64,000 bases of DNA from Solirubrobacter deserti (lineage in GTDB: Bacteria > Actinomycetota > Thermoleophilia > Solirubrobacterales > Solirubrobacteraceae): NCBI RefSeq assembly GCF_027587175.1, contig NZ_JAPCID010000028.1:1-64000 (forward strand), written 5' to 3'. A program made the translations under genes and the position numbers. Below are positions 28,094-46,748 of the stretch, in pieces; the first letter of the stretch is position 1; every line of letters starts with the position of its first letter. Under the pieces are notes generated by a model that saw only the letters and a list, made by a program, of their open reading frames with translations, searched no databases and had not been told where the DNA came from.

Positions 28094-28100
28094 GGGCCGG

Positions 28101-28106: not shown

Positions 28107-28160
28107 GCGCCAGATGTTCACGCGCTGACGCGTGATGTACGGGGGTGGCGGCGCTAAAGG

Positions 28161-28240: not shown

Positions 28241-28260
28241 GGCCGCTCCCCTCCTTTCCC

Positions 28261-29574: not shown

Positions 29575-29604
29575 GCGTTTGACGCCGTTCCTGTATCGGC
29601 CGTG

Positions 29605-29627
29605 GTTGGGGATGCACTTCCGGGTAT
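29605..29627 (+). promoter_or_regulatory. Possible SigB-type promoter before paralogue 3
   Basis: GTTG at 29605-29608 and a perfect GGGTAT at 29622-29627 are separated by 13 bases, near the spacing of SigB-family promoters. It is about 100 bases ahead of the ATG of the third secreted paralogue. Confidence 0.35.
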
Positions 29628-29634
29628 CGTCCCC

Positions 29635-29667
29635 TGGACGCTGCAGGACGCATTCATAAAGCGTCCA
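29635..29667 (+). promoter_or_regulatory. 8-bp inverted repeat in the leader of paralogue 3
   Basis: TGGACGCT (29635-29642) and AGCGTCCA (29660-29667) are perfect inverse copies around a 17-base loop. It could be an operator, an mRNA leader structure, or the terminator of the gene ending at 29574; no T-run follows. Confidence 0.4.
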
Positions 29668-29724
29668 GAACCCGCCCTCCGCGGGGCCGTGCCGGCTCCG
29701 CCCCTGCCCCCCGCTCAACCATCC

Positions 29725-31053: not shown

Positions 31054-31105
31054 TCCGCCGGACGACTTCGGACCGCATCGACCGCATAACATCGGCCGTG
31101 CACCC

Positions 31106-31618: not shown

Positions 31619-32375
31619 CGTCGCGACGCTCGAAGATCCCGTCGGCGAGGACCAGCGCGCCGGTGCCCGGATCGGTCCAGATCGGGCGCAGCGACGTGAG
31701 CGCGAAGCCGCGGGCGTAGAGGTAGGAGGCCACATCGGGCAGCAGCCATTGCCCCTCGTGCAGCGGCACGGTCGAGAGCTCGACCTCCACGACCCGGACG
31801 TGCTCGAGCAGCGAGGACGCGCCGCGCAGCACCTCACCCTCGAACCCCTCGACGTCGATCTTGAGCGCGATCGCGTCGCCGGCGCTCCAGACGTCGCCGC
31901 TGAGGCTGTCGAGCGTGATGACGGGCGCCGTCTCGCTGCCGATCCGCGCCGGCATCGGACGGCCGGGCGAAGGCGCGCGCGCCGAGTTGTGCACGGAGTC
32001 CGCGTACACGTGCAGCTCCAGCGTGCCGGCGGCCTCGCCGGCCGCGGCGTGCCGGACGTCCCAACGCGAATCGCTCGCGGCCGCCTGGCGCAGCCGCTCG
32101 AACGTGGCGCGCACCGGCTCCAGGGACACGACGCGCCCGCGGAAGCCCTCCTGGCGGAGGTGACCGACGTACTGCCCGGTGTTGGCGCCCACGTCGAGCA
32201 CCACGTCCACGCCGTGCTCGGCCAGCACCCGGGCGCGGCGCGCGTGCACGTACTCGTCGGGGGAGTGGGCGACGATCGCCAGGCCCCGCCGCCGCAGCCA
32301 TCCGCGCACGAGCCGCTCGGCGCGCGCCCTGGCCCGGGTCCGTGCCGCCTCGAGAACTCCCAGCCCCTCGGTCAT
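31599..32375 (-). CDS. FkbM-family methyltransferase
   Basis: 258 residues. SAM-binding motif VVLDVGANTGQYVGHLR, VVSLEPV and the FkbM core ALKIDVEGFEGEVLRGA, followed by VEVELSTVPLHEGQ. Likely O-methylates a glycan sugar. It overlaps the convergent acetyltransferase gene by 20 bases and diverges from the next FkbM gene across a 68-base gap with facing -10 elements (TATCCG on this strand). Confidence 0.85.
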   Translation of the reverse strand: MTEGLGVLEAARTRARARAERLVRGWLRRRGLAIVAHSPDEYVHARRARVLAEHGVDVVLDVGANTGQYVGHLRQEGFRGRVVSLEPVRATFERLRQAAASDSRWDVRHAAAGEAAGTLELHVYADSVHNSARAPSPGRPMPARIGSETAPVITLDSLSGDVWSAGDAIALKIDVEGFEGEVLRGASSLLEHVRVVEVELSTVPLHEGQWLLPDVASYLYARGFALTSLRPIWTDPGTGALVLADGIFERRDASRAPG

Positions 32376-32388
32376 GCGCGCAGTCTGT

Positions 32389-32398
32389 CGGATACGCT
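32389..32398. promoter_or_regulatory. Overlapping divergent -10 elements
   Basis: CGGATACGCT holds TACGCT on the plus strand (towards TTG 32444) and TATCCG on the minus strand (13 bases before ATG 32375). The design is like that at 15133-15142. Confidence 0.35.
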
Positions 32399-32443
32399 GC
32401 GACCAGTGGCGGCGCCGCTTCAGGCGAACCCGAGAGGCGAGCC

Positions 32444-33268
32444 TTGAACGAGAACCTGATCATCGACGCCGGCATGCACGTCGGGCAGGACACGGCGTAC
32501 TACCTGGACAAGGGCTTCGACGTGGTGGCCGTGGAAGCCAACCCGGTGCTCGCACGCGCCGCCGAGGAGCGGTTCGCCGGCGCGATCGCCGCGGGGCGCC
32601 TGCGGGTGCTCAACGTCGCTGTGGCCGAGCGGACCGGGACGGCGTCCCTGTCGGTCTCCGACGACGCGACCATCTGGAGCTCGCTGGACGCGGACTTCGT
32701 ACGCCGCAACGAGGCCTTCGGCACGCGCTATCGCACGGTCGACGTGCCCGCCGTGCGGTTCGACGAGCTGCTCGCGGACGTCGGCATCCCGTACTACCTG
32801 AAGATCGACATCGAAGGGCTCGACATGCTGTGCGTGCGGGCGCTGCACCGCTTCGACGACCGGCCCGCGTACGTCTCCCTGGAATCGAAGGTGAGCGTCG
32901 GCGGTGCGTCCTACGCCGACGCGTTCGACGAGCTGGCCCACCTGTGGGCGCTCGGGTACCGCCGCTTCAAGTACGTCGACCAGCGCCGGCACCCGGAGAT
33001 CCGGCTGGCGCCCCCGGCGCGCGAGGGCGGCTACGTCGACCAGCGCTTCTCGGAGGACTCCAGTGGCCCGTTCGGCGAGGAGACGCCGGGCGTGTGGCGT
33101 CCGTTCCCGGTCGCGGTCGCCCGCGGTGCCGCGCTCTGGTCCCAGCACGACCTGGCCGGGTTCGGTGGCCGCCGCGAGCACTCACGGCCCGCGGCGACCT
33201 ACCGCAGGGCCCACACGCGGCTGACGGGCCGCGCGCTCGGCTGGTACGACCTGCACGCCGCGCTATGA
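32444..33268 (+). CDS. FkbM-family methyltransferase
   Basis: 274 residues: LIIDAGMHVGQDTAYYLDKGFDV in two runs (motif I with the unusual AGMHVGQD), VVAVEANPVLARAAEE, the FkbM core YYLKIDIEGLDMLCVRAL and YVSLESK. TTG 32444 has GAGAGG about 7 bases ahead. The frame is open further upstream, but those residues do not belong to the fold. It overlaps the convergent FkbM gene by six bases. Confidence 0.8.
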   Translation: MNENLIIDAGMHVGQDTAYYLDKGFDVVAVEANPVLARAAEERFAGAIAAGRLRVLNVAVAERTGTASLSVSDDATIWSSLDADFVRRNEAFGTRYRTVDVPAVRFDELLADVGIPYYLKIDIEGLDMLCVRALHRFDDRPAYVSLESKVSVGGASYADAFDELAHLWALGYRRFKYVDQRRHPEIRLAPPAREGGYVDQRFSEDSSGPFGEETPGVWRPFPVAVARGAALWSQHDLAGFGGRREHSRPAATYRRAHTRLTGRALGWYDLHAAL

Positions 33269-34129
33269 CGGCACGGAGGCGCGGGGCTTGACCGCCGAGA
33301 AGATCGTGAAGTGCTCCCATTGCCAGGTGGGGTCGAACTGCGTGCTGCGCACGTCGAAGTCCTTGAAGACCGCGAGCACCTGATCCGCTTCCGGCGTGCC
33401 GGGCGTGGCGTGGATCTCGCCCATCACGAGCGCGACGTCACGGATGCGCTCCGAGGCCGGCAGCACGTCGAACTCGCCGCCCTCGATGTCGACCTTGAGG
33501 ATGTCCACGTCGCCCGCGGCCAGCACCTCGTCGAGCGGGAACCCGGGCACCTCGACCTGCTCCCCGCCGCCGGTGTGCTCGGACAGGCGCGTCGAACCCG
33601 ACCAGCTCGCGCCGCCCTCGTGGAACACGACCGGGCCCGGGTGCGCGGTCACGGCGCCGAAGCGCAGCGTCACACCCGGGAACGATCCGACGTTGCGCTG
33701 CAGGCGCTTGAACACGGTGGGGCTCGCTTCGACGCCGGTGATCGGGACGCCGGGGTGACGCAGCGCGAAGAACAGGATCGAGACCCCGATGTTGCTGCCC
33801 AGGTCGACGATGCGGCGCGGCTGCAGCGCGACCGGGGCCGCGTACTCGGCCTCGACGAAGACCTCCTCGAACACCCGCATCGCGGCCCAGTCCGGGACCG
33901 TGAACCACGTCGGGCCCTGCGGTCCCCGCACGCGGATCCGCAGCGCCCAGCGCCACCACGGCAGGGCGAGCAGCACCGAGGCGGCGACGATCCACGCCGC
34001 CGACGGCTTGTCGGGCGCCACCGCCGCGGCCGCGCCGCGCCCGACCTCCACGCTGCGCTGCAGCGATGTCCCGAGACGCCGGTCGACCCGGAGCATCACG
34101 CGCTTGAGCGCGGTACGCAGCGACTCCAT
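33263..34129 (-). CDS. FkbM-family methyltransferase with N-terminal hydrophobic segment
   Basis: 288 residues. A hydrophobic stretch (AAWIVAASVLLALPWWRWAL) near 40-60 may anchor it to the membrane. The body has RIVDLGSNIGVSILFFALRHP, GVEASPTVFKRLQRNV and DILKVDIEGGEFDVLPAS. It is closely similar to the proteins at 36773 and 39645, with the same order of motifs, so these three are recent paralogues. ATG 34129 is set by TAGGCT ending 7 bases ahead; the TAG of that element is also the stop of the GT2 gene upstream. Confidence 0.85.
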   Translation of the reverse strand: MESLRTALKRVMLRVDRRLGTSLQRSVEVGRGAAAAVAPDKPSAAWIVAASVLLALPWWRWALRIRVRGPQGPTWFTVPDWAAMRVFEEVFVEAEYAAPVALQPRRIVDLGSNIGVSILFFALRHPGVPITGVEASPTVFKRLQRNVGSFPGVTLRFGAVTAHPGPVVFHEGGASWSGSTRLSEHTGGGEQVEVPGFPLDEVLAAGDVDILKVDIEGGEFDVLPASERIRDVALVMGEIHATPGTPEADQVLAVFKDFDVRSTQFDPTWQWEHFTIFSAVKPRASVPS

Positions 34130-34136
34130 GCGCTCG

Positions 34137-34142
34137 AGCCTA
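34137..34142 (-). promoter_or_regulatory. -10 element TAGGCT overlapping a stop codon
   Basis: On the minus strand TAGGCT lies 7 bases before ATG 34129. Its first three bases are the stop codon of the GT2 gene 34140-35156, as also seen at 2818-2823. Confidence 0.5.
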
Positions 34143-35156
34143 GACGGACGGAGCGCGGTCACCGCGCGCCGGGACGGTGAAGGGCGGCTCCCAGCGGACC
34201 GGATGGCCATAGACGACGCTGCCCTCGTACTCTCCCCGGCGCCGCTCGACGTGCCCGAGCAGCGAGGCCAGGCGCCGTTCGGTCACCGTCAGGTTCAGCT
34301 TGCCGGCTGCGCGGACCGCGGCATCGATGACCGTCGTGCCCACCTTGTAGATGCGTGGGCGGTCCGTCGCGACGAGAAACCAGCGCAGCAGCGGCCGGCG
34401 ATCGTCGAAGCGCTTCTGGATCTGGTCCTCGGTGATGACGGCGCGGTGCATGTGGTCGATCAGCCAGAAGGCGCGGCCCTGCGCGCGGCATTCGCGCCGG
34501 AACGCCTCATAGGAGCGGCTGTGCAGGTGCGTCGCGCTCAGCGCGCGGTCGAAGCGCCCGTACAGCCCGCACCGCTGCAGCCGCAGGCCGAGCTCCCAGT
34601 CGTAGTGGTAGGGGAGCACATAGCGGCCGCCGATGCCGTCCGCGGCCAGCAGCGCCTCGCGGTTGAGCGAGACGTTCCCGCCCCACAGGCCACGCAGTAC
34701 GGGCGCGCCCTCCTCCCACGACGCGCAGCGGTACTCGTAGACGTCGTGGTAGAGGAACGAGGTGAATGAGCCCGGTCCGCGCTTCTCGGGCTTCGGGGTG
34801 GGCATGTAGCCGACCACCACCAGACCCGGGTCGTCGGCCTGCTCGTGGTGACGGGCGTGACCGCTCACCAGGCCCGGGTCGGCCAGCACGTCGTCGTCGA
34901 TCACCAGCACGACCTCGCCCGTGGCCGCCTCGACCCCGGTCTGCTGCGCCTTCACCGCTCCGCTGTTCTCGATCCAGATCGGCCGCAGGCGCGGCTCGCT
35001 CTGGGCGAGCTCCCGGAGGTACTCGATCGAACCGTCGTCGTACCCGTCCACGACGACGACCAGCTCGTCGGTCGCCGGATCGTCGAGCAGCGGCCGCAGG
35101 ACCCGGTCGAGCAGGTCGCGCCGGTTGTAGGTCGCCATGACCACTGAGATGCCCAC
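34140..35156 (-). CDS. Glycosyltransferase family 2
   Basis: 338 residues: ISVVMATYNRRDLLDRVL, VVVDGYDDGSIEYL, LVIDDDVLADPGLV and a WDWELGLRL-like acceptor segment (YHYDWELGLRLQRCG) with GGNVSLNREALLAADG before it. A soluble GT-A enzyme for repeat-unit assembly. GTG 35156 lies 6 bases behind TAGACT on the minus strand (plus-strand AGTCTA, 35163-35168), so it should be leaderless. Confidence 0.86.
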   Translation of the reverse strand: MGISVVMATYNRRDLLDRVLRPLLDDPATDELVVVVDGYDDGSIEYLRELAQSEPRLRPIWIENSGAVKAQQTGVEAATGEVVLVIDDDVLADPGLVSGHARHHEQADDPGLVVVGYMPTPKPEKRGPGSFTSFLYHDVYEYRCASWEEGAPVLRGLWGGNVSLNREALLAADGIGGRYVLPYHYDWELGLRLQRCGLYGRFDRALSATHLHSRSYEAFRRECRAQGRAFWLIDHMHRAVITEDQIQKRFDDRRPLLRWFLVATDRPRIYKVGTTVIDAAVRAAGKLNLTVTERRLASLLGHVERRRGEYEGSVVYGHPVRWEPPFTVPARGDRAPSV

Positions 35157-35162
35157 GGCGCG

Positions 35163-35168
35163 AGTCTA
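35163..35168 (-). promoter_or_regulatory. -10 element TAGACT of a leaderless promoter
   Basis: Six bases separate it from GTG 35156 on the minus strand. Facing it on the plus strand, TACTCT at 35213-35218 may serve the flippase gene with a leader of about 60 bases. Confidence 0.45.
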
Positions 35169-35284
35169 CTGGCGCGGTCGAGCGCCATCGGCAGGCCGTT
35201 CACACGCGCTTTGTACTCTCGTTCCGTCGCCGAACCGACCCCGCACTCGCCCCCGACTGGTTCGGCCGTGGAAAGACCCTGCCG

Positions 35285-36754
35285 ATGACGGGGATCGAAC
35301 CACCGTTGGGGAGCGGGGACTCGGTCCAGGAGCTCCGGCGGCGCGCGTTCACCGGCGTGCTCGCGATCGCGCTGCGCAGCTTGGCCATTCGAGGGATGGG
35401 GCTGGCGGCGAGCGTCGTGCTGGCGCGCGAGCTCACCCCTACCGACTTCGGCCTGGCGGCCTTCGGGCTGAGCATCGTCGGCATCGGCGCTTTCTTCACG
35501 GCGGGAGGCATCGGCGCGGCACTGATCCAGCAGGAGCGGGAGCCGACCAAGCTGCAGCTGCAGGCGGTGTTCGGCTTTCAGTTGGCGGTCGCGCTCGTGG
35601 TCGCGGTGGGGACGTTCGCGATCGGCGCGCCGCTCGGGCAGGCGGGCCTGATCGCGGGGATCATGGCCTTCTCGCTGCCGGTCGACGTGATGCGCTCGGC
35701 GCCCGCGGTGATGACGCAGCGCGAGCTCCGGTTCGGGCCGATGGTGCGCGCCGAGGTGGGCGAGATGCTCGTCTACAACGTCGTCGCCGTCGTGCTCGTC
35801 CTGCTCGGCGCCGGCGTGTGGTCGCTGACCGCCGCGGTGATGTGTCGCGCCGTGGCCGGCACGGTGCTGTTGGTGCTCGCCACCGGGATCGGCGTGCCGC
35901 GCCCGCGCTGGTCATGGGGCACCGTCAAGCCGATGCTGCGCTTCGGGGCGACCCTGCAGGCGATCGACTTCGTCAACCAGTTCCGGGCCCAGGGTCTGAA
36001 CTTCACCACGGCGGGCGTCGCCGGCGTGTCGTCGCTGGGCTACCTCGACTTCACGATGCGCGTCCTGCAGCCGCTGCTGTTGTTGTTCGACGCGGTCGGG
36101 CGCGTGGCGTTCCCCGCCGTCGCCGGGCTGCTTCGCGCCGGTGACGACCCGCGCCCGATGCTCGAGAAGGGCCTGCGCGTGGCCTTCGGCGCGACCGGTC
36201 TGGGCGTCGTCACGCTCGCCTCGGCGACCCCGGCGCTCGTGCCCAGCGTCTTCGGCCCGCAGTGGGTCCCGGTGATCGAGATCGTGCCCTGGTGCCTGTT
36301 CGCGCTGCTGCTCTCGAGCCCGATCGTGACCTGTACCGGTGCGTACCTGACCGCGATCAACCAGGTGGGGCTGGTGCTGCGCAGCACGATCCTGTACTCG
36401 ATCGCGTGGGCCGCGGTCGGGCTCGCGCTGCTGCCCTCCTACGGCGCGGTCGCGATCGCGATCGGCTGGGCGGTGGCGGGCGTCGTGGATTCCGTCTACC
36501 TCACGCGCGCACTGCGCTCGCGGCTGCCGTCGGTGCGCATCGTGCACAGCGCGGCGCCGACGGTCCTGATCGCCGCGCTGGTCGCGCCGATCGGCTGGCT
36601 GATCGAGTCAGCGATGGGACCGACGCTGCTCGCCGCCGCCGCGGCGGCGGTCTCCGCGGCCGTCCTGTACACCCTGCTGCTCGGGCTCGTGCGCCGCGAG
36701 ATGGTGCTCGAGGGCTGGACGATCTTCCGGCGGATCGTGTTGCGGCGGGGCTGA
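35285..36754 (+). CDS. Wzx-type polysaccharide flippase
   Basis: 489 residues with about 12-14 membrane helices, of the MOP superfamily (polysaccharide biosynthesis/lipopolysaccharide exporter type). The N-terminus RRRAFTGVLAIALRSLAIRG, VLARELTPTDFGLAAFGLSI and ALIQQE are typical. It should flip lipid-linked repeat units to the outer face of the membrane for the Wzy-like protein at 23295. It starts at ATG 35285 behind a leader of roughly 65 bases. Confidence 0.88.
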   Translation: MTGIEPPLGSGDSVQELRRRAFTGVLAIALRSLAIRGMGLAASVVLARELTPTDFGLAAFGLSIVGIGAFFTAGGIGAALIQQEREPTKLQLQAVFGFQLAVALVVAVGTFAIGAPLGQAGLIAGIMAFSLPVDVMRSAPAVMTQRELRFGPMVRAEVGEMLVYNVVAVVLVLLGAGVWSLTAAVMCRAVAGTVLLVLATGIGVPRPRWSWGTVKPMLRFGATLQAIDFVNQFRAQGLNFTTAGVAGVSSLGYLDFTMRVLQPLLLLFDAVGRVAFPAVAGLLRAGDDPRPMLEKGLRVAFGATGLGVVTLASATPALVPSVFGPQWVPVIEIVPWCLFALLLSSPIVTCTGAYLTAINQVGLVLRSTILYSIAWAAVGLALLPSYGAVAIAIGWAVAGVVDSVYLTRALRSRLPSVRIVHSAAPTVLIAALVAPIGWLIESAMGPTLLAAAAAAVSAAVLYTLLLGLVRREMVLEGWTIFRRIVLRRG

Positions 36755-36759
36755 GAAGC

Positions 36760-36765
36760 TAGGCT
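36760..36765 (+). promoter_or_regulatory. -10 element TAGGCT of a leaderless promoter
   Basis: It ends 7 bases before ATG 36773 and sits in the 18-base gap behind the flippase stop. Confidence 0.5.
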
Positions 36766-36772
36766 CGCCGGC

Positions 36773-37648
36773 ATGGACAGCCTTGCCTCCGTGCTGGGTC
36801 GAGGCCTGGCCCTCGTCGACGCTCGCGCCGGGACCGACCTGGAGCGCACCGTGCGCGCGAGCGTCAAAGCTGCCCCGGCGCTCGCGCCCGACAGGCGAGC
36901 GCGGGCCCGCATGTTCCTCGCGGGCTGGCTGCTGGGCAGCCGCCGCGTCCGGCGGCCGCTCGCGGTTCGCGTCCGCGGGCCGTACGGCGAGCGCGAGTTC
37001 GTCCTCCCCGACAGCGTGGCGATGGCCGTGCTCGAGGAGGTGTTCAGCTGGAACGAGTACGCCGTCGACCTCCCGCATCCGCCCAGACGCATCCTGGACC
37101 TGGGCAGCAACGTCGGTGCGTCGATCCTGTTCTTCGCGCTCCGCTACCCCGAAGCGCAGATCGTGGGGGTGGAAGCGAGCCCGAAGCTGTTCGGCGTGCT
37201 GCGGCGCAACGTCGGGGACCTGCCCAACGTGACCCTGATCCAGGCTGCGGTCAGCTCCACCGACGAGCCGATCCGGTTCTTCGAGGGCAACTCCAGCTGG
37301 GAGGGGTCGACGCGGGTCAGCGGCTGGGTGCGCGAGGAGGCCGCGACCGAGGTTGCCGCGGTCACGCTCGACGAGTTGATCGCCGACGGCGGCGCCGACC
37401 TGGTCAAGATCGACATCGAGGGCGGTGAGTTCGACGTGCTCCCGGCCTCACGCCGGCTGGCGGAGGTGCCGGTGGTGCTGGGCGAGATCCACGCGGCGCC
37501 GGGGACGCCGGAGGCCGAAGCCGTGCTCGCGCTCTTCGAGGGCGCCGAGCTGGTGAGCACCGACCCCGGGCCGGCCAACAGCCAGTGGACGACGGTGTTC
37601 TCCGCGGTGCGGCGCGACCGCGTGCCCGCGGTCAGCGCGCGCGGCTGA
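36773..37648 (+). CDS. FkbM-family methyltransferase
   Basis: 291 residues, paralogue of the proteins at 33263 and 39645. The N-terminal helix region LERTVRASVKAAPALAP is followed by LAVRVRGPYGEREFVLPD, RILDLGSNVGASILFFALRYP, GVEASPKLFGVLRRNV and DLVKIDIEGGEFDVLPAS. Probably methylates a glycan sugar. The start is fixed by the leaderless promoter. The end overlaps the convergent GT4 gene by 17 bases. Confidence 0.85.
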   Translation: MDSLASVLGRGLALVDARAGTDLERTVRASVKAAPALAPDRRARARMFLAGWLLGSRRVRRPLAVRVRGPYGEREFVLPDSVAMAVLEEVFSWNEYAVDLPHPPRRILDLGSNVGASILFFALRYPEAQIVGVEASPKLFGVLRRNVGDLPNVTLIQAAVSSTDEPIRFFEGNSSWEGSTRVSGWVREEAATEVAAVTLDELIADGGADLVKIDIEGGEFDVLPASRRLAEVPVVLGEIHAAPGTPEAEAVLALFEGAELVSTDPGPANSQWTTVFSAVRRDRVPAVSARG

Positions 37649-38693
37649 CGTCCGCCATCACGTCGAGCACGCCGCGCGCGTTGCGGGCGGCGTCGAAGCG
37701 CTCGGCGGCCCGCGCGTGCCCCGCTCGGCCCAGCCGCGCGCGGAGCGCGGGGTCGAGCAGCCGCTCGATGGCCGCGCGGACGGCGTCGGTGTCGTTCGGC
37801 GCCGTCAGCAGTCCCGTCTCCCCGTCCGCGACCATCTCCGGGATCGCGCCGACGCGGGTGGAGACGACGGGCAGGCCGACGGCCATGGCCTCGAGCACCA
37901 CGTGTGGCGATGCGTCGGCCGCCGTGGGCAGCACGAACAGGTCGCAGTCGGCGTAGAGCTCGTGCAGCACGGCACTGCCGGGCCGGACGTCGTTGTGGAC
38001 GGTCACCCCGGCGCGCGGCGCAACCTGGCTCTGGGTGACGATGTGCACGTCGACGTCGAGTCCGTCGACGGCCCGCAGGAGCGTCTCTCCGCCCTTGCGG
38101 GCGAAGTTGCCCCCGACGAACAGCACGCGCGGGCGTTCCCGCGCCTCGCGGACCGGCGGCGCGGCAGGCACGCTCGTGCCCGCCGGGATCAGGCGGATGA
38201 CCGCCGGGTCGACGCCGTAGTCGTCGATCAGCGACGCGCGGACCCACTCGCTCCACGCCACCAAGCCCGCCGCCGAGCGCAGCGCGCCGGCGACGACCGC
38301 GCGCTTGGCCGCTTCCACCCGCCGCCCGCCGACCGCGTGGTCGTAGCCCACCGCCACCTCGTCGAGGTTGACGGGGGTGGCGTCGAGCGAGATGACGGTC
38401 GGCACCCGCCGCATCACGTCACGCGAGAACAGCGATGCGGTCTGCGTGTGGAACAGCAGCGCGTCCCATGGGCGCCGGTGCATCGCCAACAACCGGCGGG
38501 CGCGGAAGCTGGCGCGCAGCGACCAGTTCGAGCGCAGCCCCGGCAGGCGGCGCTCCACCAGCCCGCGCGGCGGGTAGGTCATCGCAAACCAGGACGCCGC
38601 GACGGTCGGATCGGCGGCCGCCGCCTCGCGCAGCAGCCGCTCGAAGGTCACGTGGCCGACGGTGTACTCGGTCACGAAGCCGAACTCAGGCAC
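37632..38693 (-). CDS. Glycosyltransferase family 4
   Basis: 353 residues, GT-B fold: GFVTEYTVGHVTFERLL at the start, SLDATPVNLDEVAVGYDHAV, WSEWVRASLIDDYGV, then RVLFVGGNFARKGG (donor loop) and SPHVVLEAMAVGLPVVSTRVGAI with the retaining E-x7-type motif. GTG 38693 overlaps the stop of the branching-enzyme gene by 8 bases, so the two are co-translated. Confidence 0.87.
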   Translation of the reverse strand: MPEFGFVTEYTVGHVTFERLLREAAAADPTVAASWFAMTYPPRGLVERRLPGLRSNWSLRASFRARRLLAMHRRPWDALLFHTQTASLFSRDVMRRVPTVISLDATPVNLDEVAVGYDHAVGGRRVEAAKRAVVAGALRSAAGLVAWSEWVRASLIDDYGVDPAVIRLIPAGTSVPAAPPVREARERPRVLFVGGNFARKGGETLLRAVDGLDVDVHIVTQSQVAPRAGVTVHNDVRPGSAVLHELYADCDLFVLPTAADASPHVVLEAMAVGLPVVSTRVGAIPEMVADGETGLLTAPNDTDAVRAAIERLLDPALRARLGRAGHARAAERFDAARNARGVLDVMADVSRAR

Positions 38694-39570
38694 TCAGGAG
38701 CTCCTCGTCGATCCGGTCGAGGATGCGGCTGTCGACCTCGTCGTGGAACTTGCGCGCGAACAGCTTCGCCCGTGACACGCCGCCGGCCTCGGAGGAGTTG
38801 CGGGCCGAGTCGGCGAGCCGCTCGAAGTCGTCGAGCGTGAACGTGTGCGGGTGAGCCGCGCCCAGGGTCCACTCCATGTGCCACAGATGCTCGCCGATCA
38901 CGACGCCGGAGCGCTCGCAGTTGTTGAGCGCCGTCTGCAGGTAGTGCTCGTCCACGGCCCAGACGTGGTGGTGGAAGCGCGGCACCTCAGGGTGCTCACG
39001 CGTGTAGTCCAGGATGGACTGGGCGGTCGCGCGGTCGAGCACCATGAAGGCCGAGCCCCCGTACGGGCGCACCCCCGCCGGGTAGGGCCGCGGGAGCGGG
39101 ATCCGGAAGCGGCGGCGGCGGATCGGCGTGTGCCAGTAGCGGATGCGCCACATGCCGCCGTCCGGGCCGTACACGTCCGACGGCATCGGCCAGGTCGCCG
39201 CGAAGGTCTGGCCGGCGTACGGCTCCAGGAAGTCGACGATCCGCTCCACGGGGCGCAGCAGGTAGTCCTGGCCGCTGAACAAGACGATGTGCTCGGGCGG
39301 CTCGGGCTCGTCGAGGATCCGCTGCAGCCCGCGCAGGTACGCCTCGACGGTGTTCCACGACGCCCACGGCGTCGACATCCGGTCGAGCAGGTGCAGGTGG
39401 GGATGCTCGGGCAGCGCCGCGCGGATCGCCGAGAACAGGGCCGGCTGCGTCTTGCGGTCGATGTGCAGATAGATGGAACTACGGGGCGAGAGCAGACGCC
39501 GCGCCTGGCGACCGAGCTGCTCCGGGCCGCGGTGCGCGAGAATCAAGAAGGCCACGGCGGGGCGGCTCAC
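38686..39570 (-). CDS. Core-2/I-branching beta-1,6-N-acetylglucosaminyltransferase family (GT14) protein
   Basis: 294 residues: AFLILAHRGPEQLGRQ, YLHIDRKTQ, WASWNTVEAYLRGLQ, LFSGQDYLLRPVERI and a C-terminal HMEWTLGAAHPHTFTLDDF, the order of motifs in PF02485. The animal relatives make beta-1,6 branches; bacterial ones are found in capsule loci and some are xylosyl- or GlcNAc-transferases. It may add a branch to the polysaccharide. GTG 39570 is preceded by TACGCT at a distance of 9 bases on the minus strand. Confidence 0.82.
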   Translation of the reverse strand: MSRPAVAFLILAHRGPEQLGRQARRLLSPRSSIYLHIDRKTQPALFSAIRAALPEHPHLHLLDRMSTPWASWNTVEAYLRGLQRILDEPEPPEHIVLFSGQDYLLRPVERIVDFLEPYAGQTFAATWPMPSDVYGPDGGMWRIRYWHTPIRRRRFRIPLPRPYPAGVRPYGGSAFMVLDRATAQSILDYTREHPEVPRFHHHVWAVDEHYLQTALNNCERSGVVIGEHLWHMEWTLGAAHPHTFTLDDFERLADSARNSSEAGGVSRAKLFARKFHDEVDSRILDRIDEELLSA

Positions 39571-39644: not shown

Positions 39645-40532
39645 GTGCGAGTGTCGGAGTCCAACGCCGTGTTCGAGCTGGTCCGCCGGATCGAGGCGAG
39701 GTCCGGCACCCGGATCGCCGCGGGGCTGCGCGCTGCGGTGCGCGTGGCGCGAGTGATGCCCGGCATGCGCGAGCGCGCGCGGATCGTGCTGGTGGGGCTG
39801 GCGCTTGGCACCCGCCGGGTCCGCCGCCCGCTCGCCGTGTACCTGCGCGGCCCCAGTGGGCGGCACCGCTTCCTGCTGCCGGACGTCGCGGCCCTGCGCG
39901 TCCTGGAAGAGGTGTTCTGCAACGGCGAGTACGCCATCACGCTGCCGCAGCCACCCGCCCGGGTCATCGACCTCGGCAGCAACGTCGGCGCGACGATCCT
40001 CTACTTCACGTGGCAGTTCCCGGGCTGTGAGGTCGTCGGCGTGGAGCCGAGCCCGTCGCTGTTCAAGGTCCTGGAGGCCAACGTCGGCGGCCTGCCGAAC
40101 GTGCGGCTCGTCAATGCCGCGGTCAGCGCCTCCACGGAGCCCGTCACGTTCTTCGAGGGTCTGGAGAGCTGGCAGGGCTCGACGATGGGAAGCGCGTGGG
40201 TCGACGAGGAGCACGCGGTCACGGTCGCAGCGGTCCAGCTGGACGACCTCATCGGCGAAGCGGGAGCGGACCTGCTCAAGATCGACATCGAAGGCGGCGA
40301 GTTCGACGTGCTGCCGGCGACGACGCGCCTGCGGGACGTGGTGAGCGTGTTCGGGGAGATCCACGCCGACCCGGACGACGAGCGCACCCGCGCGCTCCTG
40401 GCGCTGTTCGACGGCTATGACGTCACGAGCACGCCCCCGACGCCCGGGGCCACGCTGTGGCGGACCATGTTCTCGGCGGTCCGTGACGCCCGGGCGCTCC
40501 AGCCGTCCGCGGGCGCCACGCAGGCTCCGTGA
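39645..40532 (+). CDS. FkbM-family methyltransferase coupled to the lasso cluster
   Basis: 295 residues, third member of the close paralogue group: LAVYLRGPSGRHRFLLPD, VIDLGSNVGATILYFTWQFPG in two runs, GVEPSPSLFKVLEANV and DLLKIDIEGGEFDVLPAT. Its TGA overlaps the GTG of the nucleotidyltransferase gene (GTGA), so it is translated with the first lasso-cluster gene. It may belong to the polysaccharide locus like its paralogues, or be a tailoring enzyme of the peptide; sequence alone does not decide. Confidence 0.82.
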   Translation: MRVSESNAVFELVRRIEARSGTRIAAGLRAAVRVARVMPGMRERARIVLVGLALGTRRVRRPLAVYLRGPSGRHRFLLPDVAALRVLEEVFCNGEYAITLPQPPARVIDLGSNVGATILYFTWQFPGCEVVGVEPSPSLFKVLEANVGGLPNVRLVNAAVSASTEPVTFFEGLESWQGSTMGSAWVDEEHAVTVAAVQLDDLIGEAGADLLKIDIEGGEFDVLPATTRLRDVVSVFGEIHADPDDERTRALLALFDGYDVTSTPPTPGATLWRTMFSAVRDARALQPSAGATQAP

Positions 40533-41665
40533 GCGCCCATGCCGCCGAGTCCGAGCTCGCCCGCTGGGCGGTGAGCGCGCGCGCCGGCCGCGACCGCACC
40601 CGTGACCGCGCGCGCGGCTGGCTCGCGGACGCCGACCCGCGGCGGCTGGCCGCGGAGGTGACGCGGCTGGGGGTCGCGGGAGCGTCGGCTCCGAGGCTGC
40701 GCGAGCTGGCCGACGAGCGCTTCGCGGCGACGCTCGACGCCGAGCTCGCCGAAGTCCGGGCCATCTCCCAAGCGGCCGCCGCGCGCCAGCGGGTGGCGTC
40801 GATGGCGGTGCTCGCCGCGCTCGCCGCCCACGAAATCGCGGCCGTGCCGCTGAAGGGCGTGCTGATGGCCGAGCGCCTGTACGGCGATGCCGCTGCCCGC
40901 TATTCCTCGGACATCGACGTGCTCGTGCGTGCGCAGGATCTCCGGCCGGCGGTGGAGGTCGCGCGCGGGCTCGGGTACGGCGAGCCCACCGACCCGGTCG
41001 ATGCCTCCGGGCTCCCGCTGCTGCACTTCGCGCTCGACGGCGATCCCGCCCTGGAGCTGCACTGGCGCGTGCACTGGTTCGAGACGGACTTCGCGGCCCG
41101 CGCCCTCGCGCGCGCCGAGCCCGGGCCGGTGCTGCGCCGTGCCGACGAGCTGGCGATGCTGCTGCTGTTCTACGCGCGCGACGGGCTCACGGGGCTCCGT
41201 CAACCCGCTGACATCGCGGCCTGGTGGGATCGGTACGGGGAGGACGAGGTGCTCGCGGAGCTGCGGGCCGTCGCCGACGAGGCGCCCGCGCTGGCCGACG
41301 CGCTCAAGGCGGGCGCCGCGACCGCGGCGCGCACGGTCGCCACGCCGGACCCGTGGGACGGGCGCGGGGCCGTGACCTTCGCGGCACGGCTGGCGAACTG
41401 GCGCCTGGCCGGCTCCGAGGACCGGCTGCGCGCCGACGCGTCGCTCGTTGACATCGCGTTGGCGCCGCGGGGCGAAAAGCTGACCACGCTGCGGCGTCAC
41501 GCGCTCATCTCGCTGCCGGAGATGGAGGGCTGGCATCGACCCGTCGCGGGCGGCGTGGTGGGCCGCCGCATCGAGCAGATGACCCGTCCGGCCAAGCTCG
41601 GACTGCGGTGGCTGCAGGCGAGTGCGCGCGTCTTTCGCCGCACCGTCCGCTCTCACATCCGGTAA
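40529..41665 (+). CDS. Nucleotidyltransferase family protein (NTP_transf_5) of the lasso cluster
   Basis: 378 residues with the mark of this family, VPLKGVLMAERLYGD at about 106-120 and YSSDIDVLVRA at about 124-134; the Asp pair in DID binds metal. The rest is helical with HWRVHWFETDF. Members recur in RiPP clusters next to PqqD, B2 and HPr-kinase-like proteins, where they are suspected to nucleotidylate the peptide or a phosphate on it; this has not been settled. GTG 40529 overlaps the FkbM stop. It is followed after 41 bases by the B2 gene. Confidence 0.8.
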   Translation: MSAHAAESELARWAVSARAGRDRTRDRARGWLADADPRRLAAEVTRLGVAGASAPRLRELADERFAATLDAELAEVRAISQAAAARQRVASMAVLAALAAHEIAAVPLKGVLMAERLYGDAAARYSSDIDVLVRAQDLRPAVEVARGLGYGEPTDPVDASGLPLLHFALDGDPALELHWRVHWFETDFAARALARAEPGPVLRRADELAMLLLFYARDGLTGLRQPADIAAWWDRYGEDEVLAELRAVADEAPALADALKAGAATAARTVATPDPWDGRGAVTFAARLANWRLAGSEDRLRADASLVDIALAPRGEKLTTLRRHALISLPEMEGWHRPVAGGVVGRRIEQMTRPAKLGLRWLQASARVFRRTVRSHIR

Positions 41666-41706: not shown

Positions 41707-42138
41707 ATGAGGTCTGCCATTGAGGCGCCGCGTGCCGGTGGCCTCTCGACGCTCGCGAAGCTGGTCCTGGCGGGCGAGATCGTGGGCGTCTACGCCCGCG
41801 CCCGGTGGCTGCTCCGCAGCCACGACGCGCCGTCGACGCTCCAGCGCCTGCGCTCGCCGAGCCGCGGGCGCCGCGCCACCGGGCAGCCGCCCGCCGGGTT
41901 GGGCCGGCACCTGGCGTGGGCGACGGTCAAGGTGCTCGCCGTGCTCCCCGTCGACGACCGGTGCCTGCTGCAGTCGCTGGTCCTCGCGCGCCTGATGGCC
42001 GTGCGCGGGCTGGCCCACGAGGTCGTGTTCAGCGTCGCGAGCGGTGCGGGCTTCGAAGCCCACTGCTGGGTGGAGACGGGCGGGGCCGCGCTGCTGGAAC
42101 CGGGCGGGGACGCTCACATCGAGATCCTGCGCCTGTGA
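41707..42138 (+). CDS. Lasso peptide biosynthesis B2 protein (transglutaminase-like leader peptidase)
   Basis: 143 residues, the usual B2 size. Catalytic Cys86 lies in VDDRCLLQSLVLARL and His119 in FEAHCWVE, the pattern of Transglut_core3 leader peptidases. It should cut the leader from the precursor before cyclisation, guided by the separate RRE protein encoded at 43615. The frame is open from 41608, but ATG 41707 starts the family-like sequence (LSTLAKLVLAGEIVGVYAR). Its TGA overlaps the GTG of the exporter ATPase. TAATTT at 41663-41668, overlapping the previous stop codon, could be a -10 box. Confidence 0.88.
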   Translation: MRSAIEAPRAGGLSTLAKLVLAGEIVGVYARARWLLRSHDAPSTLQRLRSPSRGRRATGQPPAGLGRHLAWATVKVLAVLPVDDRCLLQSLVLARLMAVRGLAHEVVFSVASGAGFEAHCWVETGGAALLEPGGDAHIEILRL

Positions 42139-42791
42139 GTGACCTTCGAGCGCACGGCGTGCACAAGACCTGGCGCGGCGGCCCGACGGTGCTCGAGGGC
42201 GCTTCGCTGGACGTGCCCGCGGGGACCTCGACGCTGCTCACGGGGCGCAACGGCGCGGGCAAGACGACCCTGCTGCGCATCCTCGCCGGCCTGATCGGCG
42301 CCGACGCCGGGGAGGTCCGGTACGGCGACCTGGACCCCGAGCGTTCGGCGACCGACTATCGGCGCCGGATGGCGTACCTCGGCGTCGTCTCGGCGGGGCT
42401 GTACCCGCGCTTGAAGGTCCGCCACCATCTCGACCTGTGGGCGCGGCTGGCGTACCTGTCCGCGGCCGAGCAGGACGCGCGCACCGCCGAGATGGTGGAG
42501 GCGTTCGCCCTGCGCGAGCTGCTCGACCGCCGCCCGGATCGCATGTCCATGGGCCAGCGCCAGCGCCTGCGGCTGGCCGGTACGTTCCTCCACGGGCCCG
42601 AGCTCGTGCTCCTCGACGAGCCCGCGAACTCGCTCGACGACGTCGGCCTGGAGCTGCTGCGCACGATGGTGGCCCGCACGCGCGCGTCGGGCGGCGTGCT
42701 CGTCTGGGCGCAGCCGTTCGGCGAGGGCGCGCACGGCATCGACTTCGACGCGCACTGGGTGCTGGAGGGTGGGAAGCTGGTGCCGGCATGA
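42135..42791 (+). CDS. ABC exporter ATPase of the lasso cluster
   Basis: 218 residues: Walker A GRNGAGKTT at 37-45, a signature of unusual form MSMGQRQR near 136 (normally LSGGQ), Walker B LVLLDEPAN near 157 and a final switch-like WAQP. It is of the small CcmA-like ATPase type, paired with the permease that it overlaps by ATGA. Together they probably export the mature lasso peptide and give self-immunity. Confidence 0.85.
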   Translation: MSDLRAHGVHKTWRGGPTVLEGASLDVPAGTSTLLTGRNGAGKTTLLRILAGLIGADAGEVRYGDLDPERSATDYRRRMAYLGVVSAGLYPRLKVRHHLDLWARLAYLSAAEQDARTAEMVEAFALRELLDRRPDRMSMGQRQRLRLAGTFLHGPELVLLDEPANSLDDVGLELLRTMVARTRASGGVLVWAQPFGEGAHGIDFDAHWVLEGGKLVPA

Positions 42792-43594
42792 GCCGGGCGG
42801 CGTGGCGGGCCACACAGGCGATGGTCCTGCGGGACCTGCGGATCCTGCTCTCGTACCGCTTCCGCTGGATCTCGATCCTGCTCGGCCCGGCGGTGTTCGT
42901 CGTGCTCTTCTACTACGTGTCGCGGCTCGTCGTCGTCGAGTCCGTCGGGTCCTCGGACGGCTACTTCTCGTTCGTGATCACCGGCATGGCCGGGCTGGCC
43001 GTGCTCACCGCCGCCGTGTCCGAGGTGTCCACGACGCTGCGCAACGAGCAGATCGCGGGCACGCTCGAGCGCCTGGCGACGTCCGCCTTCGGGCCCCTGC
43101 GCGCGTGCGTGGCCATGACGGTGTACCCCGTGTTGCAGGCCATGGTCGTGGGCATGGTGACGATCCTGATGGGGATGGCGATCGGCAACCTGCGTCCCGG
43201 GCTCCCGGAGCTCGTGGCGGCCGTGCCCGCGCTGGCGCTCGTCGCCTTCGCGTTCGCGCCACTGGGGCTGCTGGCCGCGGCCCTCACCTTCGTCGTGCGC
43301 CAGGCGACGATGGGGGTGACGCTCATGATCACCGTCTTCTCCGTGGTCGCCGGCGTGTACTTCCCCATCTCGCTGCTGCCGGAGTGGATCCGCTGGACGT
43401 CGGACGTGCAGCCCTTCACCCCGGCCGTCGGCATCCTGCGGCACCTGCTGGCGACCTCCCCGCTGGAGGGGTCCGTCTGGGGCGACGCCGCGCGGCTCGC
43501 CGCGTTCACCGTGGTATTGCTGCCCCTGAGCCTGATCGCGCTCCGGGCCGCGCTCGCGCACGCCCGCGCGCGCGGCACAATGACCGAATATTAA
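42788..43594 (+). CDS. ABC-2/CcmB-like exporter permease of the lasso cluster
   Basis: 268 residues with six hydrophobic segments. Family-like elements are RDLRILLSYRFRWISILLGP at the start, TTLRNEQIAGTLERLATSAF in the first cytoplasmic loop and PISLLPEWIRWTSDVQPFTPAV near the end, all typical of ABC-2 permeases. ATG 42788 is coupled to the ATPase. It differs from the fused PCAT/LasD exporters of many proteobacterial lasso clusters. Confidence 0.83.
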   Translation: MSRAAWRATQAMVLRDLRILLSYRFRWISILLGPAVFVVLFYYVSRLVVVESVGSSDGYFSFVITGMAGLAVLTAAVSEVSTTLRNEQIAGTLERLATSAFGPLRACVAMTVYPVLQAMVVGMVTILMGMAIGNLRPGLPELVAAVPALALVAFAFAPLGLLAAALTFVVRQATMGVTLMITVFSVVAGVYFPISLLPEWIRWTSDVQPFTPAVGILRHLLATSPLEGSVWGDAARLAAFTVVLLPLSLIALRAALAHARARGTMTEY

Positions 43595-43614
43595 AGGCGC
43601 CGGAGACCTTGTCT

Positions 43615-43899
43615 TTGACCGATCCCCTCGTTCGGAACGTGTCCATCCCGGAGCACGTCGTCTTCCGCTCGTTCGCGAGTGAGACCGTCGTGCTCAACCT
43701 GCAGACGCAGAAGTTCCACGGGCTCAACGCCTCGGCCGGGCGGATGGTGGAGGTGCTCGGCCGTGAGAAGTCCGTCGGCGCGGCGCTCACGGAGATCGCG
43801 CGCGACTTCGAGCGCCCCGAGGCGGAGATCGAGCCGTACCTGCTCGAGTTCGTGGAGACCATGCTCGAGCGCGGACTGCTCGTCGTCACGGATGGTTGA
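43615..43899 (+). CDS. PqqD-family RRE protein (lasso B1)
   Basis: About 94 residues: FRSFASETVVLNLQTQKFHGLN, split by the typical beta-turn, then VEVLGREKSVGAALTEIARDF and VETMLERGLLV. This is the winged-helix PqqD fold that binds the precursor leader and presents it to the B2 peptidase and the cyclase. There is no ATG; TTG 43615 lies 9 bases behind GGAG (43602-43605) and TTG 43609 is an alternative. The end overlaps the kinase gene by 8 bases. Confidence 0.87.
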   Translation: MTDPLVRNVSIPEHVVFRSFASETVVLNLQTQKFHGLNASAGRMVEVLGREKSVGAALTEIARDFERPEAEIEPYLLEFVETMLERGLLVVTDG

Positions 43900-44833
43900 C
43901 GCTCCCCGCGCCCGAGCGGGCCACGCGTTCGGGCTCGCGCTCGAGAGCGACTTCGACGTGCTCGGGCTCGTGCCCGACGCGGCCACGGAGCGGCTGCCGG
44001 AGTGCTCGCTGCGGCTCGTGGAGGGCGCGGCGCTGACCGCCGAGTGGGCCGGCGCGGGGGCGCGCTCGGTGCTGGTGGAGGGCGCCCCCGAGGCGCCCGC
44101 GGCGACGATCGACGTGCACGACGAGCTCGGGTATCGGCTCAGCGCGCGCTACTTCGGCACGTGCGTGGTGCGCCCGGGCGCGGCGCGCATCGACTGCGCG
44201 CCGCCGCCCGTGCCCGCCTGGCGCTGGCAGCGCTTCCTGGTCGGGCGCGTGCTGCCGTTCGCGGCGATGCACCGCGGGTACGAGATCCTGCACGCCAGCG
44301 CGGTGGCGCTCGACGGCCGCGTGCTGGCCTTCGCGGGCGCGCGCGGGTGGGGGAAGACGTCGCTGGCCGTCAACCTCGTGCTCGGCGCGGGCGCCCGGCT
44401 GGTGACCGACGACGTGCTCGTCCTGGAGGTGCGCGACGGCAGGCCGTTCGTGCACCCGGGCCTGGGCGTCACCAACCTGCGCCCGCAGGAGGAGCAGCGG
44501 CTCGGGGCCGCGACCGCGCAGCTGGGGGACCGCCTCGGTCGCACGGGGCAGACCAAGTCCCATTACACCGTCGCCCGCGAGTCCCGTGCGCTTCCACTCG
44601 CTCGGCTGCACCTGCTCGGCGGCGGGGACGAGGACGCCGCGGTCATCCGGCCGGCGCGGGTGACCCCGGTGCAGCTGCTCGGCAATGCGTTCCTGGTCGG
44701 GGCGCGCGAGCCGGCCTCCTTGGCGCACCTGCTCGCGACGTGCGGAACGGTGGCCGAGACCGTCGAGATCGTGGAGGTCGCGCGGGGCCTCGTGGAAGGC
44801 CCCGCGGAGCTCGCCACCCGCCTGGCGGCATGA
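43892..44833 (+). CDS. HPr kinase/phosphorylase-like lasso peptide kinase
   Basis: 313 residues. The C-terminal two thirds have the HprK fold: ILHASAVALDGRVLAFAG in two runs, P-loop GARGWGKTSLAV near 149-160, LVTDDVLVLE and TNLRPQ. The N-terminal part is a beta-rich domain. In the paeninodin family such kinases phosphorylate the C-terminal Ser of the lasso precursor; the precursor here also ends in Ser. It is not the classical HprK of sugar regulation, since no HPr signature helix follows and it lies inside a RiPP cluster. It overlaps the PqqD gene and, by ATGA, the cyclase gene. Confidence 0.84.
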   Translation: MVDAPRARAGHAFGLALESDFDVLGLVPDAATERLPECSLRLVEGAALTAEWAGAGARSVLVEGAPEAPAATIDVHDELGYRLSARYFGTCVVRPGAARIDCAPPPVPAWRWQRFLVGRVLPFAAMHRGYEILHASAVALDGRVLAFAGARGWGKTSLAVNLVLGAGARLVTDDVLVLEVRDGRPFVHPGLGVTNLRPQEEQRLGAATAQLGDRLGRTGQTKSHYTVARESRALPLARLHLLGGGDEDAAVIRPARVTPVQLLGNAFLVGAREPASLAHLLATCGTVAETVEIVEVARGLVEGPAELATRLAA

Positions 44834-46527
44834 TCGCCGCGATCCTCGATCCCGGCGGGCGCCGCGCGGGGCCCGAGGCGGCGCTGCGACGGGCCGGGGC
44901 CACTGCGGTCGCCCGCTTCGGGGCGATGTGGCTCGGCTGGACCGGCGGACCGCCGCTGGAGGTCGACGGCGTGACGGTGCTCGTCGACGGGCCGGCCGGC
45001 GAGCGCGCCGCGTCCCTGCTCGCCGGGGCCGCGCGCGGGCGACCGCCGGCGCCCGAGGTCCCCACCGGCCTGGCCTGGGCCGCCGCCGAAGACCGCGGCG
45101 CCGCTGTCCGCGACCTCACCGGCGCCCGCCCGCTCTTCGTGCGCCGGGAGGGCGAGGTGACGTACCTCGCGTCCGAGGTGCGCGAGCTGCTCGCGCTGCT
45201 GCCGGGCGCGCCGGGCACCGACGATGAGGCCGCGGCCCTGTGGCTCGCGATGGAACCGCTCGGCCAGCGGACGCTGTACGCCGGCGTCGCGCCCGTCCCG
45301 GCGGGGCACTGGCGCGCGTTCGACGCGGCGAGCGCGCGGCGCTACTGGCAGCCGGCGCCGGAATCGCTGAGCCTGGGGCGCGAGGCCGCGGCGGAGCGGG
45401 TGTGGACCGCTCTGCGGGAGGCGGTCGGGCCGTGCGTGCGGGCGGCCGAACGGCCCGCGGTGCGCTTGAGCGGGGGCCTCGACTCGAGCGCCGTGCTCGC
45501 CGCGGCGATCGCCGAGGGGGTGGTGCCCGCGGCCGTCAGCACCGTGTTCCCGCAATATCCCGAGGCCGACGAGGCGGAGTTGATCGCCGCGGTGGCGGGA
45601 CAGCTGGGGGCGCCGTCGCGCACGTTCGCGGCCGGCCCGCGCGACCTGCTGGCCGACGGCGCCGCGTTCCTCGCGCGCTGGGGTGTGCCGCAGGAGTACC
45701 CCGGCCGCGGGCTGTTCCATCCGATGCTGGAGGCCGCGGCGGCGGCGCACGACGTGGTGCTCGACGGCGAGGGCGGTGACGAGCTGTTCGGGTGCGAGCC
45801 GTTCCTGCTCGCCGACCTCGTCCGCCACGGCCGGCTGGCCGCCGCGCGGCGGGTCGCGCACCGTCTCCCGGGCGCGCCCGAGCGGTTGCCGGCGCGTGCC
45901 TATCGCGTCATCGCGCGCCGCTGGGTGGCGGGACCGCTCGCACCGGCGCGCCTGCGTCCGCCGGCGCGGGTCGGCGCCGACCTCGACTGGTTCGCGGACG
46001 CGATGACGCCGCGCGCCCGTGCGGCGGTGCGGGCACGCCGGGCGCAGCTCGACTGGCGGTCGCGCCCAGGCCCCCGGTGGCTTGCCCGGCGGATCGCGCT
46101 GATCGTCACGCTCCCGGCCGAGGCGGGCTCGGCCGACTACCTGCGCCGCGTCACGGCCATGGCGGGCGTGTCCGGCGCCAGCCCGCTGACCGACCGGCGA
46201 CTGGTCGAGACCGTGCTCTCGCTGCCACCCGAGCACGCCTTCGATCGCCGCCGGGACAAGGAGCTGCTGCGGACCGCGCTCGCCGGGCACGTCCCGGACG
46301 TGGTCCGCCTGCGCGCGGAGAAGTCGCACTTCGGCGACGCCGTCCTCGACAACCTCGACCGGGCCGCGCTGCTCGAGCGGCTCACCCCGGACCTCGCGCC
46401 GTATCTCGACGTGGCGCGCGTGCGCCGCCAGGTGCAAGCCGGCCCTGACGCCCACCCCCGCGGCCGGGCCGGATGGATGTTCGAGAGCTGGCGCGCGGCG
46501 ATGCTCGCCACCTTCCTGACGCGCTGA
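44830..46527 (+). CDS. Asparagine-synthase-like lasso cyclase (C protein)
   Basis: 565 residues. The C-terminal synthetase domain has the PP-loop LSGGLDSSAVLAAAI at about 212-226, LDGEGGDELFG at about 311-321 and YLRRVTAMAGV. The N-terminal half is a glutaminase-like fold, but the nucleophile Cys2 of true asparagine synthetases is missing (it begins MIAAILDPGG). It should adenylate the side-chain carboxyl of the core Asp and close the macrolactam with the freed N-terminal Gly. The precursor gene follows 55 bases downstream. Confidence 0.9.
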   Translation: MIAAILDPGGRRAGPEAALRRAGATAVARFGAMWLGWTGGPPLEVDGVTVLVDGPAGERAASLLAGAARGRPPAPEVPTGLAWAAAEDRGAAVRDLTGARPLFVRREGEVTYLASEVRELLALLPGAPGTDDEAAALWLAMEPLGQRTLYAGVAPVPAGHWRAFDAASARRYWQPAPESLSLGREAAAERVWTALREAVGPCVRAAERPAVRLSGGLDSSAVLAAAIAEGVVPAAVSTVFPQYPEADEAELIAAVAGQLGAPSRTFAAGPRDLLADGAAFLARWGVPQEYPGRGLFHPMLEAAAAAHDVVLDGEGGDELFGCEPFLLADLVRHGRLAAARRVAHRLPGAPERLPARAYRVIARRWVAGPLAPARLRPPARVGADLDWFADAMTPRARAAVRARRAQLDWRSRPGPRWLARRIALIVTLPAEAGSADYLRRVTAMAGVSGASPLTDRRLVETVLSLPPEHAFDRRRDKELLRTALAGHVPDVVRLRAEKSHFGDAVLDNLDRAALLERLTPDLAPYLDVARVRRQVQAGPDAHPRGRAGWMFESWRAAMLATFLTR

Positions 46528-46582: not shown

Positions 46583-46735
46583 GTGAAGCACACCGACGAC
46601 AAGCCGACCTTCGAGATCCCGAAGGTCGTCGACTACGGCGATCTCGCCGAGATCACCGCGGGCCAGTCCTCTGGCTCCCGGCTCGACGCGACGTTCCCGA
46701 ACGGGACTCCGATCCCGAACCTCACCTTCTCCTAG
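46583..46735 (+). CDS. Lasso peptide precursor (A), 50 residues
   Basis: A short GTG-started gene. Leader residues 1-26 hold FEIPKVVDYGDLAEITA, which fits the lasso leader pattern (aromatic-x2-Pro ... Gly ... Leu/Ile-Thr) with the conserved Thr at position -2. The predicted core is residues 27-50 (24 residues): it begins GQSSGSRLD, so Gly1 and Asp9 can form a nine-member macrolactam ring; the tail contains FPNG, a TPIP turn and ends NLTFS. The C-terminal Ser matches the presence of the HPr-kinase-like protein. The tail Phe residues could plug the ring. There is no Cys, so it would be a class II lasso. All of this is prediction from sequence. Confidence 0.85.
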   Translation: MKHTDDKPTFEIPKVVDYGDLAEITAGQSSGSRLDATFPNGTPIPNLTFS

Positions 46736-46748
46736 GCGGGCGTGGGGG

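Follow-up and report, generated by a model that had tools for sequence, protein, structure and literature searches.

What is encoded by the short reading frame that closes a peptide-modification operon in Solirubrobacter deserti, and what would its product be for? The frame (46583-46735, here gene A) lies in a stretch of 64,000 nucleotides of contig NZ_JAPCID010000028.1 (the window), and an earlier note, made from the letters alone, had read it as a 50-codon GTG gene for a lasso peptide precursor. Judged by its sequence, gene A almost certainly encodes a lasso precursor with Asp9 as the ring residue, and the product is probably a lasso peptide tailored by a kinase, as paeninodin and pseudomycoidin are, and encoded within a polysaccharide locus of Solirubrobacter. 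The sequence basis for this assignment covers the precursor, the gene set, the catalytic motifs, the conservation of Asp9 and of a near-terminal Ser, and the context of the locus. The kinase-tailored kind is already known from Bacillota and Proteobacteria, and with a nucleotidyltransferase (N) in pseudomycoidin; the unusual points here are that a single core is conserved across phyla and that the polysaccharide setting recurs. At stake is the purpose of phosphorylated and phosphoglycosylated lasso peptides, for which the shared core offers a testable function, and the locus adds, from Thermoleophilia, a kinase paired with a nucleotidyltransferase.

Translation of 46583-46735 gives (V/M)KHTDDKPTFEIPKVVDYGDLAEITAGQSSGSRLDATFPNGTPIPNLTFS and a stop, and the 50 codons of the note are borne out. 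The leader ends ...TFEIPKVVDYGDLAEITA and contains FxxP (Phe10-Pro13), DYG and Thr at position -2 (Thr25); the Pro, Gly and Thr that had been placed in lasso positions are all present, with FxxP as a refinement. Lasso leaders usually carry YxxP or WxxP. The acidic ring residue falls within core positions 7-9 (Asp35, core residue 9), Ser50 is core residue 24 and the last, and the 15-residue tail has the two Phe and the TPIP segment described. A leader-motif scan of the sort that the note proposed supports the lasso assignment: precursor A scores 21.6 bits against the NCBI lasso leader model NF033521 (cut-off 19), and is the only match up to E = 1 across the whole 7.1 Mb genome. A missed alternative precursor was considered and rejected.

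Gene A lies at the 3′ end of a compact operon (Table 1): N, B2, D1, D2, B1, K and C precede it on the same strand, and neighbouring genes are separated by -8 to +55 bases. The set includes the three proteins of a lasso cluster: the leader-binding protein B1, which is a RiPP recognition element (RRE; PF05402), the peptidase B2, which is above the NF033537 cut-off (61 bits against 33), and the cyclase C (PF00733), with which none of the lasso-specific C models reached its cut-off. The start codon of B2 is our choice, as the same frame offers an earlier start at 41608. In addition, there are a kinase (K), a two-part ATP-binding cassette (ABC) exporter (D1 and D2), and, as in pseudomycoidin-type clusters, a nucleotidyltransferase gene (N, PF14907). 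In its predicted functions, the operon corresponds to those for phospho(glyco)lasso peptides of the paeninodin/pseudomycoidin type. The more informative parts of the locus, the nucleotidyltransferase and the polysaccharide surroundings, are absent from the earlier note. Gene A is probably the final gene of the operon, because a terminator-like hairpin lies 3′ of its stop codon. Directly past this hairpin is a LuxR-type regulator (GerE domain, 46810-47445), whose control of the cluster may or may not apply.

Within the same class, related precursors lie next to homologues of B1, B2, C and K in genomes G104, G394 (two copies), G408, G030 and G169, and the related precursor of G049 has B2, C, K and N alongside on a short contig. 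The position immediately 3′ of C is seen in the similar clusters of G104, G049, G408 and G030 as well. Over 9 kb, a second genome of the same species (G206) shows 100% identity and is uninformative. In an eight-row alignment of precursors, Pro13, Asp17, Tyr18, Gly19, Leu21, Glu23, Thr25 and Asp35 are invariant, core residue 1 reads G, G, G, L, G, A, T and R, and in five of the eight rows the conserved Ser or Thr near the end is not the last residue, with STP, NH, N, LP or G after it. The note had made its case depend on the conservation of Gly27, Asp35 and Ser50. Asp35 (Asp9 of the core) held in all 12 related cores, and Ser50 held as Ser (once Thr, in G049) at the C-terminus or within 1-3 residues of it; Gly27 did not hold. 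Because it is Gly in only six of the 12, its lack of conservation should not be taken as a refutation.

Lasso cores usually diverge fast, and one that is kept from phylum to phylum is unusual. When plasmids were searched by tblastn with the 50-residue precursor A, Paracoccus sp. MC1862, Nostoc sp. UHCC 0302 and Sulfitobacter indolifex matched over nearly its full length, with E values (7e-3 to 3e-2) that are weak alone; two of the three (Paracoccus and Sulfitobacter) sit at lasso clusters. All four cores, that of the window included, have exactly 24 residues, Asp9 and a terminal Ser, and share the pattern LDxxFxxGTPxxxLTFS. Identity to the window core is 15/24 for Paracoccus, 14/24 for Nostoc and 11/24 for Sulfitobacter, whereas 20,000 shuffles gave no more than 9. 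The Paracoccus cluster has the order A-B1-B2-C-K-D, with a PF14907 gene, an O-antigen ligase and sugar transferases nearby, and the Sulfitobacter plasmid has the order D-A-B1-B2-C-K amid polysaccharide and sulfotransferase genes. The paeninodin-family core of the Priestia plasmid (LGGSGEYTDAAFPTHTPKGDLTFES) has Asp9 and the same tail plus one extra Glu (D-AAFP-xx-TP-xxx-LTF-(E)S). A strict form of the motif, T.{9}D..F..[GLH]TP...[LV]T[FL], matched lasso precursors only among 2.1 million six-frame residues, a small background that contains the loci from which the motif was seen. The core pattern recurs in Actinomycetota, Pseudomonadota, Cyanobacteriota and, in a close version, Bacillota, mostly by polysaccharide genes, which points to a common function.

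Some details of these plasmids stand apart. The Sulfitobacter precursor, MKKSPYEVPTLRTHGKVEAITKTTKSGTTLDAGFSSGTPLSEVTLS (L147 9011-9151), is unannotated, in the interval between genes annotated as transporter and PqqD, and the same record has a second, weaker match at 27293-27421 on the minus strand. The Nostoc precursor, on a conjugative plasmid (L146 8998-9144), has an intact 24-residue core of the LTFS type and no lasso enzymes within 9 kb; it may be an orphan substrate or a remnant.

The kinase has the conserved His-Lys-Asp-Asp set of HprK-like kinases (H134, K155, D173 and D174), which is reported as essential in paeninodin-type kinases (PMC9266682). The four residues are invariant in a set of eight K homologues, and the pairing of a C-terminal Ser with a paeninodin-type kinase that the note had proposed holds on both counts, with Ser50 last and H-GKT-DD intact. 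A profile of the eight homologues matches HPr kinase/phosphorylase structures (1jb1, E 5.5e-6); this family profile was required, as a phmmer search of the PDB with the single K sequence returned nothing but noise. Matches to K in plasmid records include the kinase, annotated as an aldolase, of the paeninodin-family cluster on Priestia aryabhattai pB2.3 (E 3e-5), which carries H-GKS-DD and is ∼25% identical to K, as well as a plasmid kinase of Streptomyces clavuligerus, and H-GK[ST]-DD is found in all four of the kinases that were aligned. A scan of genome contigs for K homologues returned Solirubrobacter sp. CPCC 204708 and no other, and for this reason the relatives were gathered by whole-genome searches. 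The Thalassobaculum and Rhizorhabdus kinase matches led to no LTFS-type precursor. The Thalassobaculum plasmid (L148 6390-15794) contains a lasso cluster with a kinase-like gene, two PqqD genes, a sulfotransferase and galE, and the scan that found no LTFS-type precursor there was a simple motif scan.

The surroundings of these clusters are alike in one respect. Glycan genes flank the lasso clusters of G394, G408, G030, G104, G169, Paracoccus, Sulfitobacter and Priestia, and in the Bacilli paeninodin-like clusters sit inside capsular polysaccharide loci (PMC13381572). In the window, a Wzy_C protein is encoded at 24060-24485, ∼16 kb upstream of the lasso operon. Wzy_C lies within about this distance of the lasso cluster in seven of the 11 genomes searched (coordinates read by eye), where ∼0.08 per cluster would be expected from its density there of ∼1.9 per Mb. 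The binomial P of ∼3e-6 is too favourable, because the distance was picked post hoc, glycan genes cluster, and some of the seven are outside the LTFS core family. Taken with the cross-phylum core, the Wzy-type setting suggests a role tied to cell-surface polysaccharide, rather than that of a rapidly diversifying antibiotic.

From these elements we infer the chemical steps, their order and a surface role. B1 would bind the leader (FxxP...DYGDL), and K would phosphorylate the hydroxyl of Ser24 on the linear precursor. B2 would then cleave after residue 26, with Thr at -2, and C would link the amine of Gly1 to the side chain of Asp9, giving a ring of nine residues through which the 15-residue tail is threaded. 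N would put one or more hexoses, or a nucleotidyl group leading to sugar, on the phosphate, and the D1/D2 pair would export the product. There is precedent for both tailoring steps: lasso kinases act on C-terminal Ser, and PsmN adds hexoses to the resulting phosphate in pseudomycoidin (PMC8498205, PMC9266682). We consider phosphorylation of Ser24 likely, and for glycosylation by N the balance is moderately favourable. It is a long shot, and is offered as such, that xxxxGxxLDxxFxxGTPxxxLTFS marks a trans-phylum lasso peptide of surface-polysaccharide assembly, whose glycosylated phosphoserine links the peptide to the polysaccharide that Wzy makes at that locus, or else caps, primes or controls this polysaccharide.

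Among known systems, the paeninodin family of Bacillota (e.g., Priestia aryabhattai pB2.3, WP_142339111.1) shares with the window a split B1/B2, a cyclase, an HprK-like kinase with H-GK-DD, a C-terminal Ser and nearby polysaccharide genes, but it has a WxxP leader and one ABC protein, whereas the window has FxxP and a split ABC ATPase and ABC-2 permease. Pseudomycoidin (Bacillus pseudomycoides, psm cluster) resembles the window in its tailoring set of kinase and nucleotidyltransferase, as judged from its description in the literature, and differs in phylum and gene order. The proteobacterial clusters of Paracoccus and Sulfitobacter have the same 24-residue core ending in Ser, the K motif and glycan genes around them, but there the precursor precedes B1 and there is one ABC protein, whereas in the window A is last, N is first and the exporter has two parts. 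SyanK of Sphingobium is a proteobacterial kinase that has been studied. The linear polyphosphorylated peptides (LPPs) of Bacillota are also similar, with an RRE, an HprK-like kinase, an NTP transferase and a capsular-polysaccharide setting (PMC13381572); they lack a cyclase and B2, both of which are present in the window, and a lasso peptide is therefore predicted. Our literature search found no lasso peptide from Solirubrobacterales or Thermoleophilia, nor this core pattern, although it did not extend to the main lasso catalogues, which may list the core family.

Several observations weigh against a kinase-tailored lasso peptide as proposed here. The paeninodin precursor model NF033524, against which the Priestia precursor scores 57.7 bits, gives no match to precursor A, and the leader of precursor A has FxxP in place of the WxxP that is nearly invariant in paeninodin-like precursors (PMC13381572). 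Because both comparisons fail, we do not class precursor A as a paeninodin; the system would nevertheless work like paeninodin despite failing its sequence model. Core residue 1, the proposed amine donor, is variable, with Leu, Thr, Ala and Arg occurring besides Gly. Pfam gave no match to K, which is far under the cut-offs of TIGR04352 and TIGR04355 (HprK-related kinase A/B; 30.0 and 24.3 bits against 200), and an AlphaFold model of K from the single sequence has a pLDDT of 33. Elsewhere in the taxonomic order, K homologues occur in clusters with precursors that have Pro or Ala as their last residue (G175, G099, G054 and G113), and the presence of the kinase is thus not in itself proof that a C-terminal Ser is the target. 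The Ser that is last in the window core is kept near the end in the relatives, but in G104, G394, G408 and G030 it is followed by 1-3 further residues. These extensions, together with the Pro/Ala-ending precursors, leave the phospho-site rule unproven for this clade. The G113 lasso cluster has two K homologues (L052 9186-9800 and 10563-11384) and a precursor without Ser or Thr near its C-terminus, and a second group of precursors (e.g., ...DYGDLLDVTRASGAVGGEDGAGKSIQVTVDPLVQATVQLFP), many ending in LP or FP, is multicopy in G054 and G013 (L056, L140), with the G054 copies adjoining a kinase-bearing lasso cluster.

The kinases found with precursors that lack a terminal Ser could mean that the lasso peptide is as described, but that K targets another hydroxyl (for instance that of a Ser in the ring or a Thr in the tail) or a partner, and that the C-terminal Ser is kept for threading or export. 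In the LPPs, the HprK-like kinase LppK does phosphorylate an internal residue, Ser3 of the core (PMC13381572). We regard this as rather improbable, as Ser or Thr is present at or near the core end in all relatives of this core family, and the paeninodin kinase is specific for C-terminal Ser (PMC8498205). An alternative that differs from our proposal in the last step only, and that we rate as unlikely but deserving serious attention, is a phosphorylated lasso peptide without glycosylation, with N and the adjacent FkbM gene belonging to the polysaccharide island. The window N overlaps the FkbM gene of that island, a second PF14907 gene is present elsewhere in the genome, and N is absent from the annotation of the Priestia cluster and was not found in the genome of G104, which is incomplete. 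Against this, a PF14907 gene adjoins the lasso cluster in seven genomes of Thermoleophilia (that of the window, G049, G113, G030, G169, G408 and G394) and is near that of Paracoccus, and PsmN puts hexose on the phosphoserine of pseudomycoidin (PMC8498205, PMC9266682). That 46583-46735 is a chance reading frame, with the true precursor elsewhere, is barely credible: the frame is short, starts with GTG and has no Shine-Dalgarno sequence clear by eye in the 55 bases that separate it from the cyclase gene, but its leader match is unique in the genome, homologues occupy the same place in other genera and the core is matched across phyla. We rejected this explanation, which the conserved homologues refute in practice.

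Table 1. Features of the lasso operon and the adjoining polysaccharide genes (window coordinates).
Feature	Position	Strand	Details
Polysaccharide island adjoining lasso operon	27167..39570		two GT2, a GT4, Core-2/I-branching enzyme, Wzx-type flippase (35285-36754), FkbM methyltransferases, hexapeptide transferase
FkbM-family methyltransferase	39645..40532	+	TIGR01444 1.8e-23; 4-base overlap with start of N
N, PF14907 nucleotidyltransferase, predicted phosphoserine substrate	40529..41665	+	PF14907 7.8e-25
B2, lasso leader peptidase	41707..42138	+	NF033537 1.4e-16; PF13471 2.6e-15
D1, ABC transporter ATPase	42135..42791	+	profile matches
D2, ABC-2 type permease	42788..43594	+	profile matches
B1, PqqD-fold leader-binding protein (RRE)	43609..43899	+	PF05402 7.6e-10; NF033536 2.4e-5
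K, HprK-like kinase	43892..44833	+	H134 ... GKT (K155) ... D173-D174 intact
C, asparagine-synthase-type macrolactam (isopeptide) cyclase	44830..46527	+	SGGLDSS motif; PF00733
A, lasso precursor gene	46583..46735	+	GTG start; leader = residues 1-26, core = 27-50 GQSSGSRLDATFPNGTPIPNLTFS
Core peptide, 24 codons	46661..46732	+	Gly1 46661-46663, Asp9 46685-46687, Ser24 46730-46732
Terminator-like hairpin	46748-46771	+	3′ of precursor A stop codon

The FkbM gene that overlaps N probably belongs to the glycan island, and is possibly co-transcribed with the lasso operon. It was considered as a lasso tailoring enzyme and rejected, because its paralogues are spread across the adjacent island; four more FkbM-type methyltransferase genes lie within 31599-37648 (at 31599, 32342, 33263 and 36773). 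By the same island, two adjacent and similar open reading frames (28132-29574 and 29602-31053) encode secreted-looking proteins with Pro/Ala-rich tails.
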